Source: a virus. From it: DNA of 24,990 bases. Shown here in pieces: positions 13,689 to 19,283 of the stretch. The stretch covers positions 1 through 24,990 of the IMG/VR virus record IMGVR_UViG_3300037882_003700; one strand, written 5' to 3'. How positions within the stretch are numbered: the stretch's first letter is position 1; every line of letters begins with the position of its first letter. The translations under genes and the position numbers were made by a program. Below the pieces are notes generated by a model. The model was not told where the DNA came from, did no database searches, and saw only the letters and a list, made by a program, of their open reading frames with translations.

Positions 13689-14222
13689 ATGAATCCCGCA
13701 ACCGTTCAAGCCTTCATCGATAGCATCATCGTCAAGGAAACCGACAAATACACCAACCATCCCAAAGACAAGGGCGGGCCGACCAAGTACGGTATCACCC
13801 TCAAAACGCTTTCCGCGTGGCGTGGCAAGCCCACCACCGCCGAGGATGTTGAACATCTGCAGGAAGCGGAAGCGCGCGCGATTTACGAGAAAGAATACAT
13901 CACCGGCCCGCGTTTCGACATGATCAACCGGCCAGAGACGGCAGGTTTCCTCGTTGACTTCGGCGTTACCAGCGGCCCTTCGGATGCTGTGAAAGCGGTG
14001 CAGCGCGTGATGAACGCCGTGGGTGTTCCTCTCAAGGTCGATGGTATCATGGGGCCGAAAACCGCCGGTGCGATCAATGAATACACAGCACCGAAAGAAC
14101 TGCTGAACCGGCTCGTCGCCGAGCGTGTGATCTTCCACGTCGATGATACGCAGAAGCGCCCGGATCAGTTGGTGTTTCTTGAGGGGTGGGTGCGGCGCGC
14201 GCTGAGCTTCCTCATCTACTAA
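13689..14222 (+). CDS. Endolysin, glycoside hydrolase family 108 muramidase with peptidoglycan-binding domain
   Basis: 177 residues; the ribosome site AGGAG is about 7 nt before the ATG. The GH108 catalytic region is clear: E17 in 'IVKETDKYTNHPKDKGGPTKYGIT', split here as 'VKETDKYTNHP' and 'DKGGPTKYGIT', which matches the family's 'hEGGY.NDp.DpGG.T.yGIt'. The middle part 'AEARAIYEKEYITGP' and 'FLVDFGVTSGPSDAVKAVQ' also fits. The C-terminal half ('VDGIMGPKTAGAINEY' to the end) is the PG_binding_3 domain usual in this family. The enzyme cuts the glycan of peptidoglycan at lysis. No signal peptide or N-terminal anchor is seen, so it needs a holin for export. The Gly-Gly of the usual EGGY is replaced by Thr-Asp, a small deviation. 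Confidence 0.9.
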   Translation: MNPATVQAFIDSIIVKETDKYTNHPKDKGGPTKYGITLKTLSAWRGKPTTAEDVEHLQEAEARAIYEKEYITGPRFDMINRPETAGFLVDFGVTSGPSDAVKAVQRVMNAVGVPLKVDGIMGPKTAGAINEYTAPKELLNRLVAERVIFHVDDTQKRPDQLVFLEGWVRRALSFLIY

Positions 14223-15246: not shown

Positions 15247-15390
15247 ATGCTGTCTCTCATATTGCTGATCGCCGCCTTCATTTTGTTTGCGCTGAGCGCT
15301 TTCAACGTGCCGTCGGGCCGAATCAATCTCACTGCGGCGGGCCTTGCCTGCTGGACGTTGAGCCTGCTCGTCGTCCAAGGGCTGAATTAG
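15247..15390 (+). CDS. Small hydrophobic membrane protein (47 residues)
   Basis: A very strong AGGAGG site lies 4 nt before ATG 15247, overlapping the end of the lipoprotein gene. The frame encodes 47 residues ending at TAG 15388-15390. Two hydrophobic spans are visible: residues 2-18 ('LSLILLIAAFILFALSA') and 27-44 ('LTAAGLACWTLSLLVVQG'), joined by a short loop with Pro, Gly and Arg. It is too short for many gene callers. Its place in the lysis region and two-span shape make it a holin or holin-accessory candidate, an inference. Confidence 0.7.
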   Translation: MLSLILLIAAFILFALSAFNVPSGRINLTAAGLACWTLSLLVVQGLN

Positions 15391-15427: not shown

Positions 15428-15503
15428 TCCCGGTCGAAGAAGGTTGAATCTTATGCCGATCATTTTCATTCGCAACAAACACTTAAAGGAGCTGAGTAAT
15501 CTT

Positions 15504-15707
15504 ATGACCGCATTTCTCGAAGAAGCCCGCGCGCTGCTTAACAACGTCGCCAACGGAGCCGCCGACGCCGCCGAAACCAAAGAGGCGGTGAAGGCGCTGG
15601 AAGTGAAGCTGACGGAGAATTCCGATCTCGATGAGGAACAATCCACCATCATCAAGGAACTCCTCGAAAAGCTGGCCGCTTCCACGCCGACCGAACCCAC
15701 CGCTTAA
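15504..15707 (+). CDS. Small acidic helical protein, last late gene
   Basis: 67 residues from ATG 15504, chosen because AAAGGAG stands 11 nt upstream and 'MTAFLEEARALLNN' begins the conserved-looking helix. An in-frame ATG at 15453 with AGAAGG upstream would add 17 residues and cannot be excluded. The protein is Ala/Glu-rich and helical ('AAETKEAVKALEVKLTENS', 'EEQSTIIKELLEKLAAS') with a Thr/Pro tail. Its shape resembles small coiled-coil proteins found at the end of phage lysis or tail operons, but I do not recognise the family. Its TAA stop shares the palindrome TTAA with the stop of thyX on the other strand. Confidence 0.6.
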   Translation: MTAFLEEARALLNNVANGAADAAETKEAVKALEVKLTENSDLDEEQSTIIKELLEKLAASTPTEPTA

Positions 15708-15717
15708 ATCTTAAGCG
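15701..15717. other. Small inverted repeat at the shared convergent stop codons
   Basis: CGCTTAA (15701-15707), ATC, TTAAGCG (15711-15717): perfect 7-bp arms with a 3-nt loop. It contains the TAA of the plus-strand gene (15705-15707) and the TAA of thyX (15706-15704 on the minus strand). It may add to transcription pausing where the operons collide, but no U run follows on either strand. Confidence 0.6.
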
Positions 15718-16621
15718 ATGAACGGATATGGGCTATCTGCCTTGCGGATAGCCCATATTCTTTTGCGGCTACCTTCCACCAGTCATCCGCGGGTTGGCAC
15801 GCAGCATCCTGCATTGTATAGATCCACTCATGGATGACTTTCATTTGATCTTCGTCGAAATTCACAGCGTTCTTCTGGTGACGCTTAAATGCTGCGTAGG
15901 TGGTCGGCAACCAGTGCTGGAGAATGTTTTCCAGGATGTGCTCGGCATATACCCGGATCTCGTATTGAGCATGGCTGTCGGCCCGCAGAAGCAGAAATCC
16001 GAGCAGGTTGCGCAGATCCACCTTCCACACCCATTCGGTATAGAAATTCGTCGGCAGCACCATGCGCGCCAGCTCGCGCGCAAGGTCATGTCCACCCTCA
16101 ATTAGCACTTCCTTTCCGTCCTTGATTTTCATTCCCAGCAGCTTTTCATACAGCCGGTAGGAAACGGCGGATTGCTCCATGATATTGGCGCGAACCTCCT
16201 GTGCTTCCTCCAGCGGAAGGACATCACCGCGCCCCTGCCTGTTGGTGGTCGATTGCACCGCGCATTGAGCATTTTCAGGCACATAAAACAAAGCCGGTAG
16301 GATAGAGTAGCGGGCGCTCATTTCATTGACGCTGGCGGTGCGGTGCCTGATCCACTGGCGGGCCACGAAGATCGGCATCCGAACGTGCATTTTGATCTCG
16401 CACATTTCGAAGGGTGTCATGTGGTGGTGCGAGAGCAAATAGTTGATGAGCTGCTTATCGGTGCTGATCTTCTTCGTACCCTGCTGATAGCTGGTGCGCG
16501 CGGCATCGACGATGCACTGGTCGGTTCCCATGTAATCGAGCACGACCACATGGCCGTGATCGAGGATTGGCTTCACTTCGCCGAGAATGTTATCCATGTA
16601 TTCAGATGATGGGCGAGCCAT
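15704..16621 (-). CDS. thyX: Flavin-dependent thymidylate synthase ThyX
   Basis: 305 residues. It converts dUMP to dTMP with methylene-tetrahydrofolate, NADPH and FAD. The ThyX signature RHRxxSxNxxSxR is complete at residues 92-104 ('RHRTASVNEMSAR'). Flanking family features are 'SHHHMTPFEMCEIKMHVRMPIFVARQW', seen here as 'LSHHHMTPFEMCEI' and 'MPIFVARQW', and the C-terminal 'LRNLLGFLLLRADSHAQYEIRVYA' region ('HAQYEIRVYAEHI') that binds flavin and dUMP. Length is slightly above the usual 220-270. AGGAG lies 6-7 nt before the ATG, inside the end of the dCMP deaminase gene, which it overlaps by 20 nt. It is the last gene of the minus-strand operon; its 3' end carries the late terminator of the opposite strand. 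Confidence 0.96.
   Translation of the reverse strand: MARPSSEYMDNILGEVKPILDHGHVVVLDYMGTDQCIVDAARTSYQQGTKKISTDKQLINYLLSHHHMTPFEMCEIKMHVRMPIFVARQWIRHRTASVNEMSARYSILPALFYVPENAQCAVQSTTNRQGRGDVLPLEEAQEVRANIMEQSAVSYRLYEKLLGMKIKDGKEVLIEGGHDLARELARMVLPTNFYTEWVWKVDLRNLLGFLLLRADSHAQYEIRVYAEHILENILQHWLPTTYAAFKRHQKNAVNFDEDQMKVIHEWIYTMQDAACQPADDWWKVAAKEYGLSARQIAHIRSSLKI
15726..15765 (+). terminator. Intrinsic terminator of the late operon, embedded in the thyX coding end
   Basis: ATATGGGCTATC (15726-15737) and GATAGCCCATAT (15747-15758) are perfect 12-nt inverted arms. The loop TGCCTTGCG can extend the stem by three pairs, including one U-G. On the plus strand a short T-rich stretch follows (TCTTTTG, 15759-15765). 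It lies 18 nt after the last late stop, as expected for a terminator. The same bases code ThyX residues near EYGLSARQIAHI on the minus strand, where no U run follows, so it should stop mainly plus-strand transcripts. Confidence 0.75.
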
Positions 16622-17030
16622 AAATCACTCCTGCGTCGTCAAATTGTTGTTTTGAAAATTTCTGCTCCTCGGCCCAGCGTTCATCCGAAGGGTTGGCAAG
16701 CGCAACGACGCGCCTGATGCCTTTCTGGATGATGCGCGCCGCGCATTGAGGGCAGGGGAAGAAGGTGCAATACAGAGTACAGCCTTCGGTGTAAGCCGCA
16801 TTATCCAGCGCGTTCGATTCCGCATGAACCACCAGCTTGTATTTTACATCGCGGTTCTGCAGCCTCTCATCGGTGTCCTTCACGCCGCGGGCGAATCCAT
16901 TATATCCTACGCCCACCACGCGCCGCTTATCATCGACGATGACAGCGCCTACCTTCGTGCTTGGATCCTTGCTCCATTGTGCGACGTGCTCCGCAAGGGA
17001 GAGAAAACGCGCATCCCATTTACTACACAT
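16602..17030 (-). CDS. dCMP deaminase
   Basis: 142 residues of the zinc-dependent cytidine/deoxycytidylate deaminase family. The zinc site is H69-A-E71 ('VVHAESNALDNAA') and P92-C93-x-x-C96 ('FFPCPQCAARII'). The N-terminal 'SKDPSTKVGAVIVD' and 'VGVGYNGFARGV' match the dCMP deaminase pattern for phosphate and base binding. It makes dUMP from dCMP, the substrate of ThyX, whose gene follows with a 20-nt overlap. The start overlaps the preceding gene by 8 nt and has no clear ribosome site, so it probably depends on coupling. Phage homologues include T4 Cd; allosteric control by dCTP/dTTP is possible but cannot be read here. Confidence 0.93.
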   Translation of the reverse strand: MCSKWDARFLSLAEHVAQWSKDPSTKVGAVIVDDKRRVVGVGYNGFARGVKDTDERLQNRDVKYKLVVHAESNALDNAAYTEGCTLYCTFFPCPQCAARIIQKGIRRVVALANPSDERWAEEQKFSKQQFDDAGVIYGSPII

Positions 17031-17517
17031 CGATCTTGGTCTGCTTATCGGAAAATCCGATAGTGGTCAGCCTCCCACGCTCCTGCCGAAGGGCGATCTT
17101 CATCTCCTCGGTGTTGGTGACAAAACCCTGGCAGAGCAGGTACATCAGCTCCGGCTCGAATTGATCCTGATGCAGGTACACCAGCACGTCTTTCCCTTGG
17201 CCGGCGGCATAGCCCGCCTCCAGGTGCGCCGAGCGTCCGCAGGGGAGCAGCAGCACACAGGTATCGCACCAGTTGAGCGCGTCTTTGTCGAAGCCGAAAC
17301 CTTTCTCCGCGACGGGAGAGTTTTCGATCATGTGAACATACTGCCGCAGGTTCCAATTCTTCCACTCTGGATCCATCTGGCTCCAGGCGAAGCCGCTTTG
17401 TCCTGGCGCGGGATTGCGAAAGTCATAGACCTCATGCCCTTCGGCGCGCAGCGCCGCCAGCACTTCCGGCTGGTAAGGGTTACGCCACGAACTGGCGAGA
17501 TAGATTTTGCGTTTCAT
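17023..17517 (-). CDS. Nucleoside 2-deoxyribosyltransferase-like / nucleotide N-glycosidase-like enzyme
   Basis: 164 residues with AAAGGAG about 9 nt before the ATG. The fold markers are the N-terminal 'KIYLASSWRNPYQPEVLAAL' with a bound-sugar loop, 'DALNWCDTCVLLLPCGRSAHLEAGYAAGQGK' seen as 'WCDTCVLLLPCG' and 'RSAHLEAGYAAGQGK', and E100 in the latter, matching the catalytic Glu of the Nuc_deoxyrib_tr family. Members either move deoxyribose between bases or hydrolyse (deoxy)nucleotides at the glycosidic bond. It lies directly before dCMP deaminase and ThyX, so a role in shaping the dNTP pool, or in removing an unwanted nucleotide, is likely. Substrate is unknown. Confidence 0.8.
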   Translation of the reverse strand: MKRKIYLASSWRNPYQPEVLAALRAEGHEVYDFRNPAPGQSGFAWSQMDPEWKNWNLRQYVHMIENSPVAEKGFGFDKDALNWCDTCVLLLPCGRSAHLEAGYAAGQGKDVLVYLHQDQFEPELMYLLCQGFVTNTEEMKIALRQERGRLTTIGFSDKQTKIDV

Positions 17518-18152: not shown

Positions 18153-19283
18153 TCAATCCTTTCGTCCAATATCGACGCACACAGGAAAACGTGGGATGCC
18201 ATCCGGTGTGAGATGGAAGTATCGGATGGTGGCGCGCTGCCCCACAAATTGATCTCGCTTTGCAAGCAGAAAGCGGTAATGATCTCGACCACCTTTAATG
18301 CCTGACTGGAAGGGGCGTCCGTCAGCGAGCCGAAGCATGAGCGATCCGGCCATACCAGACCGATTACCGACACCTTCGAGCACGTCGAGAATTTCAAACT
18401 CGGCATCCTGAAACTCCTTCCTTTTCAGCAGAGCGCTGGTGCGTTTGTTTTCATACGGCGCATTGAACCGGATGATTCCACCTTCATACCCCTCGCCGGT
18501 TGCCAAGCCGTAGCACTCATCAAGGTTGGTGTCGTTGTTGACCGACCATGTTTTGACGAACTGGATCGCAGGGAAAAGGGTAGGATTATTGACGAAGAAC
18601 TGATGCAGCCAGCGGTATCTTTCCTCAAACGTGGCATCGGGGCGCGCGCTCAGAAAGACATCGTAGATGTGGTACTGGATGGTTTTATTGATCTGATCCT
18701 GAACCGCTTCGTAGCCTTTGGTTTTGCGGACGAGCGAGGCGATGGTATTGAAATCTTCACGCAGGTCATGGTTGTAAAGCTCGCCGTCGAAGTAGATTCC
18801 CTCCGGGAGATTTGACAGGATAGAAGCGATGTGGCCGCAGGAGGGTATATGTTCTCCGGTGCGGCTGCGCAGATCCCCGCGGTGGGAAATGCAACGAATA
18901 CCATCCAGCTTAGGCTGAACAAAAACGCTGCCTTCCTTGCCGAGCCGCCAAGGGAGTTGGGTTTCATATTTCTTGAAATCCTTGGCGAGCATTGGTTCGA
19001 AGAAGTGCATCTTCTCTGTCTGCGCGGCTTCGATGGTGTCATGATAGCCTTCCTTCCGTTTCTTCTTGTAGGCTGCTTCCACTTCGAATTTGCATTGGTC
19101 GATGGGGCCGCGCTCATGCTTTTTCCCCACGTTCGTACTCTGCGCCGCCGTCCAGTCGGAGGCGACGAGCTGGCCGTGCAGCTGGCCGCTGACCATGCGG
19201 TAGGCGGTCAGGCTGTCATGCACTTCGATATGCCACTGGCGTATAGCGCCAGTGGTATCTTTCTTGAAAAGCGTCGGCCACAT
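18153..19283 (-). CDS. ATP-dependent DNA ligase
   Basis: 376 residues. It seals nicks in duplex DNA using ATP. The nucleotidyltransferase motifs are present: I at K125-L-D-G128 with R130 ('QPKLDGIRC'), III 'YFDGELY' with E168, IIIa 'QYHIYDVF', IV 'GYEGGIIRF' and V 'LLKRKEFQDAEF'. An OB-type C-terminal part follows ('VGNRSGMAGSLMLRLADG' to the end). The first 85 residues ('LFKKDTTGAIRQWHIEV', 'STNVGKKHERG') form a WGR-like domain seen in some phage ligases. AAGGAGG precedes the ATG by about 10 nt. It sits among recombination and nucleotide genes, so it likely serves phage replication and joint-molecule sealing. Confidence 0.93.
   Translation of the reverse strand: MWPTLFKKDTTGAIRQWHIEVHDSLTAYRMVSGQLHGQLVASDWTAAQSTNVGKKHERGPIDQCKFEVEAAYKKKRKEGYHDTIEAAQTEKMHFFEPMLAKDFKKYETQLPWRLGKEGSVFVQPKLDGIRCISHRGDLRSRTGEHIPSCGHIASILSNLPEGIYFDGELYNHDLREDFNTIASLVRKTKGYEAVQDQINKTIQYHIYDVFLSARPDATFEERYRWLHQFFVNNPTLFPAIQFVKTWSVNNDTNLDECYGLATGEGYEGGIIRFNAPYENKRTSALLKRKEFQDAEFEILDVLEGVGNRSGMAGSLMLRLADGRPFQSGIKGGRDHYRFLLAKRDQFVGQRATIRYFHLTPDGIPRFPVCVDIGRKD

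Follow-up and report, generated by a model that had tools for sequence, protein, structure and literature searches.

A predicted one-way terminator for late phage transcription coded within the 3′ end of thyX

In the viral DNA analysed here (24,990 nt, IMG/VR record IMGVR_UViG_3300037882_003700, referred to below as the window), a late operon and an early operon ending in thyX converge without a gap, and a hairpin with an adjoining U-tract lies antisense to the last thyX codons (Table 1). Judging from its sequence features, this element most probably serves the late operon (tail and lysis genes) as its intrinsic terminator, a reading to which we assign a probability of roughly 0.8. The stop codon of the last late ORF (TAA, 15705-15707, plus strand) and that of thyX (TAA, 15706-15704, minus strand) overlap, corresponding to a gap of -4, which bears out the sequence-only reading that convergent late and early operons end here on overlapping stop codons that both use the same TTAA. 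The last late ORF itself has no database match, and its frame has the top coding score among the six frames of 15504-15704.

Table 1. Coordinates of the features at and around the convergent junction in the window.
Feature	Position	Strand	Remarks
Endolysin, glycosyl hydrolase 108 family	13689-14222	+	Marks the plus-strand operon as late/lysis
47-aa ORF, holin-like, lysis region	15247-15390	+	Likely two transmembrane segments; membrane character judged by eye from the translation
Last late-operon ORF	15444-15707	+	87 codons from TTG; likely start ATG 15504 or 15453
Inverted repeat of 7 bp at the stop codons	15701-15717		CGCTTAA 15701-15707 / TTAAGCG 15711-15717
TTAA common to both convergent stop codons	15704-15707	both
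thyX, FAD-dependent thymidylate synthase, 305 aa	15704-16621	-	Pfam Thy1 E=4e-50; phrog_85; alignments
Predicted terminator stem-loop for late transcripts	15724-15760	+	17 contiguous pairs including G-U; loop CTT
U-tract TCTTTT	15759-15764	+	Directly after the perfect stem; late strand only
dCMP/cytidine deaminase family	16602-17030	-	Upstream neighbour of thyX; nucleotide-metabolism operon

The core of the hairpin is a perfect 12-bp inverted repeat (ATATGGGCTATC at 15726-15737 and GATAGCCCATAT at 15747-15758, with a loop of 9), which is separated from the smaller repeat at the stop codons by 8 bases (15718-15725). In RNA of the late strand, G-U pairs lengthen this core to a stem of 17 uninterrupted pairs that closes on a 3-nt loop (-28.2 kcal/mol) and precedes a TTTT, and the 86-nt region around the hairpin has a folding z of -7.4. 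The stem-loop is coded within ThyX residues E288-I299, its stem starts 16 nt past the last late stop codon, and hairpin and U-tract together (15724-15764) reside wholly within thyX. The site combines the features of an intrinsic terminator, that is, a stable, G+C-containing hairpin with a short loop, a U-rich tract, if only a modest one (TCTTTT, then GC), and a position just downstream of the last gene of the operon. On the thyX strand, in contrast, the main stem comprises 12 bp before an A-C mismatch (-20.2 kcal/mol), and CCGTTC comes next. The late strand has the stronger stem because the non-Watson-Crick positions pair as G-U in the late RNA but are A-C mismatches in the thyX RNA. The features of a bidirectional terminator are absent, as the thyX strand lacks a T-run after the stem and the hairpin does not sit in an intergenic gap. 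Given this asymmetry of both fold and U-tract, the hairpin resembles an intrinsic terminator that works one way, on late transcripts.

Alternatively, the hairpin might act in the thyX mRNA, for example, as a 3′-end stabiliser, as an RNase III or truncating termination site as in E. coli arfA, or in translation control. The arfA gene provides a precedent: the 3′ part of its reading frame contains a regulatory stem-loop that faces the 3′ UTR of the convergent mscL (PMC10070815), and the window resembles this pair in having a stem-loop inside the 3′ coding end of one of two convergent genes. The thyX-strand stem is also stable. We nevertheless regard such a role as unlikely: the stem on that strand is the shorter one, the sequence behind it is not U-rich, and the position of the hairpin matches that of the late/early junction terminators of related phages (see below). 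Moreover, the arfA stem-loop reportedly acts in arfA RNA, together with antisense control of mscL, whereas the asymmetry in the window points to termination of the opposing transcript.

With its arm of 12 bp, the hairpin core surpasses in length every other perfect short-loop repeat of the window; 30 dinucleotide shuffles produced arms of 11 at a rate of 0.03 per shuffle and none of 12. When the whole window was scanned for hairpin-plus-T sites on both strands with a home-made scoring rule, the hairpin ranked first (47, next 40). A built-in terminator scan missed the site, probably by extending the stem over the first U positions, and the window contains no Rfam match. The second-best terminator-like site (19230-19258, plus strand; ATGCCACTGGCG...CGCCAGTGGTAT then CTTTCTTG) sits in the 5′-terminal part of the ligase gene (18153-19283, minus strand) and reads in the late direction; its synonymous null stands at 26 of 4,000 recodings, and it is possibly a back-up stop for late read-through. 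With one of the two best plus-strand sites located deep in the ligase gene, such hairpins can thus arise within coding regions and at a distance from operon ends.

The thyX portion that codes for the stem is genuine protein-coding sequence. Phage and alphaproteobacterial ThyX proteins share a conserved GLSxRE C-terminus, with which the C-terminus of the window's ThyX (YGLSARQIAHIRSSLKI) can be aligned; the segment coded by the stem reads YGLSARQIAHI. A scenario in which the C-terminus arose from an old intergenic terminator that was read through into the gene was rejected, since the homologues have a native C-terminus to which the final 17 residues can be aligned. Upon recoding of the last 27 codons with the codon usage of the phage, an arm of at least 12 bp was obtained in only 2 of 200,000 cases, and none of 6,000 synonymous recodings reached the observed terminator score. 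In addition, rare codons occur in the stem, namely CTA (3 % of the Leu codons) and ATA (4 % of the Ile codons) as well as, towards its centre, AGG (5 % of the Arg codons); the preferred codons would be CTG, ATC, and CGC. On these grounds, the nucleotide sequence of the thyX 3′ end appears to be constrained beyond the protein, and selection for termination presumably shaped its codons. That the codons of this segment are self-complementary by mere coincidence is highly improbable: the protein sequence does permit a long stem, with approximately 0.03 % of recodings under uniform codon choice reaching arms of at least 12 bp, but this frequency drops to about 1 in 100,000 when the codon usage of the phage is applied, the stem includes several rare codons, and the U-tract lies on the correct side of a hairpin placed 16 nt past the late stop. 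The earlier proposal that the ThyX C-terminus codes for the stem of a terminator in the late direction is hence well supported by the 17-bp stem with its U-tract, the recoding null, and the genuine ThyX alignment.

Further insight came from related phages. By its gene content, the window is a fragment of a siphovirus similar to Caulobacter phage Seuss and Achromobacter phage JWF, with 12 of its proteins matching Seuss and 11 matching JWF, on corresponding strands and largely in the same order. The shared arrangement features tail genes on the plus strand and SbcC/SbcD-like proteins as well as an exonuclease on the minus strand, whereas the JWF ligase is placed differently from that of the window. 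Late and early operons also converge in six annotated relatives, namely Seuss (NC_047757), JWF, Achromobacter phage 2-1, Xylophilus phage Lumi, and the Acinetobacter phages fJoAci04 and Mystique, all of which have a window-like junction between tail/lysis and nucleotide/replication genes. In these six phages, the junction gap of 23-58 bp is taken up by a strong predicted hairpin that is flanked by A- and T-tracts on either side. Altogether, 13 distinct convergent junctions of the lineage (these six included) have short gaps and hairpins scoring at least 30 in both directions; they were found with a simple, crude gene caller, and six were checked against the record annotation, while the late/early assignment of the seven unannotated ones is inferred. 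The 13 hairpins are intergenic, save for one or two outer bases in two cases, and some relatives have no clear junction terminator under the crude gene caller. The sequences of the relatives' junctions are unrelated, and the hairpin-plus-U-tract form at the junction is the same.

The window departs from this layout in several respects. While its more distant Seuss/JWF-like relatives have the hairpin in the gap and tracts on both sides, the window is gapless, with the hairpin in thyX and a U-tract in the late direction only. The junction gene likewise differs, being thyX in the window and a ribonucleotide reductase subunit, a dNMP kinase, or another gene in the relatives. No relative with thyX at the same junction was retrieved in searches with the ThyX protein and alignment, the hairpin-arm DNA pattern, the late-gene protein, the nucleoside deoxyribosyltransferase, a tail protein, or an SbcC alignment. 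Known phages with the most similar ThyX (those of Rhodobacter and Loktanella) were uninformative on the stem, as thyX there precedes genes on the same strand. The nucleoside deoxyribosyltransferase family gene of the window (phrog_12607; 17023-17517, minus strand) has relatives of 70-75 % identity, the fetched flanks of whose contigs are otherwise unlike the window. Read against its lineage, the window keeps the typical (predicted) junction terminator, with the gap lost and the early-direction U-tract absent.

This comparison also bears on the notion that the palindrome functions at the DNA level, that is, as a protein binding site or as a replication or packaging signal. A perfect 12-bp inverted repeat could indeed bind a dimeric protein, but the window holds no second copy of the full repeat (its own arm being the sole match), the extension by G-U pairs would be meaningful in RNA only, and the relatives show the same form at the junction despite unrelated sequences; we therefore consider this explanation exceedingly remote.

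For the terminator reading, the following course of events can be envisaged. Late RNA polymerase would pass the last late stop codon, whereupon, 16 nt further on, the 17-bp hairpin with UUUU behind it would form in the late RNA, and release would take place approximately 61 nt into thyX. The thyX-embedded terminator would hence do the job of the bidirectional gap terminator found at the late/early junction of relatives, and late transcription presumably terminates at the hairpin in vivo. Intrinsic terminators between convergent genes are often two-way (PMC7566282), and a bidirectional terminator has been predicted between the converging units of phage tf (PMC3517423). Phage tf and the window have in common an intrinsic terminator between two converging phage transcription units; however, the terminator described for phage tf separates two gene sets, whereas that of the window is coded in one gene.

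The sequence-only reading had furthermore predicted that the compact layout entails colliding transcription or an antisense control that the late operon exerts on thyX. In favour of this idea, the operons converge without a gap, read-through between convergent bacterial genes giving rise to antisense RNA has been documented (PMC3027695), and for arfA/mscL, an overlapping 3′ end reportedly causes antisense crosstalk (PMC10070815). Nonetheless, this outcome is very unlikely: the terminator lies at the very 3′ end of thyX and ranks as the top-scoring terminator-like site of the window, and the junction terminators of the relatives separate operons rather than link them. By stopping late RNA 61 nt into thyX, the terminator would cap late antisense at about that length and therefore protect most of the gene, so that the prediction loses its footing. 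The opposite direction is a different matter. No strong terminator in the early direction, i. e., for thyX transcripts, emerged near the junction in our scans, and these transcripts may end by Rho or continue into the late genes. Since the thyX strand has no recognisable terminator, read-through from thyX into the late genes would be the more likely source of antisense RNA, as compared to late read-through.

Less importance can be ascribed to the inverted repeat at the stop codons. Its fold is more stable in the thyX orientation (-12.1, as opposed to -7.5 in the late one), and no U-tract adjoins it in either direction. The window contains 20 perfect repeats whose arms measure 7 bp or longer (loops of 3-8), compared to about 9 expected from simple shuffles, and TTAA is common to 12 of the 15 convergent pairs with a 4-nt overlap among the fetched loci (window pair included). 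The shared TTAA palindrome, initially highlighted as special, thus turns out to be ordinary. A more far-reaching scenario is that loss of the gap forced a swap of the conserved bidirectional terminator for a one-way terminator in the ThyX C-terminus, whereby rare codons and possibly residue changes (RQIAHI as opposed to the mostly RExxE(F/L)-like motif of the homologues) were accepted for the sake of the stem. The second hairpin at the stop codons would then be tuned to the thyX strand, and thyX transcripts would run into the late genes, resulting in a one-sided antisense coupling of the early and late operons. We put this forward tentatively and consider it rather improbable as a whole.

Terminator-like sites embedded in convergent genes were also encountered elsewhere. 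Among the fetched loci, strong antisense hairpin-plus-T sites occurred in 15 of 6,305 gene-interior blocks of 90 nt versus 8 of 148 strand-ends of overlapping convergent pairs, although several of these eight embedded sites stem from related loci and do not constitute eight independent cases. Besides the window, they comprise a thyX group of freshwater phages, a phage pair (L089/L201), an alphaproteobacterial pair (L101/L103), and L007, a doubtful call in that the opposing ORF is antisense to thyX. In the alphaproteobacterial pair, the gene concerned is a bacterial ORF that is MazG-like as judged from sequence (L101:486-857, L103:1300-1671) and abuts a convergent gene, with an antisense terminator-like hairpin at its 3′ end.

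The freshwater phages (L173-L188, L234, L235; e. g., L184, L181, and L188) are unrelated to the window and have a convergent overlap of 12 nt instead of 4. Like the window, they code for a hairpin followed by TTTT on the opposing strand within the ThyX C-terminus, yet with other codons (EKALGLDAGLG segment) and a shorter stem. This stem is poorly kept, being broken in L182 and L179 and absent in L189, L190, and L236; by inspection, without scoring, a single pair is changed on both sides (G-C to A-T, L173 vs. L188), and the synonymous null for L188 is weak (77 of 4,000). As far as these sequences tell, the freshwater thyX group is a case of recurrence, not of strict conservation. Alphaproteobacterial thyX genes (L113-L168 and others), especially those of Pelagibacteraceae/SAR11, frequently have convergent overlaps of 4-26 nt with no embedded terminator. 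In E. coli, mapping of 3′ ends yielded 99 primary ends that at the same time lie antisense to a gene (PMC7815308).

The predicted thyX-embedded terminator reveals no new mechanism, and the window is a strong example of an already known kind, namely a terminator embedded at overlapping convergent genes. Here, one stretch of DNA codes for protein on one strand and, as all signs in the sequence suggest, provides a terminator on the other, and relatives of the same lineage show the non-overlapping layout at the same junction. Terminator predictors that are limited to intergenic gaps would miss such operon ends in compact genomes.
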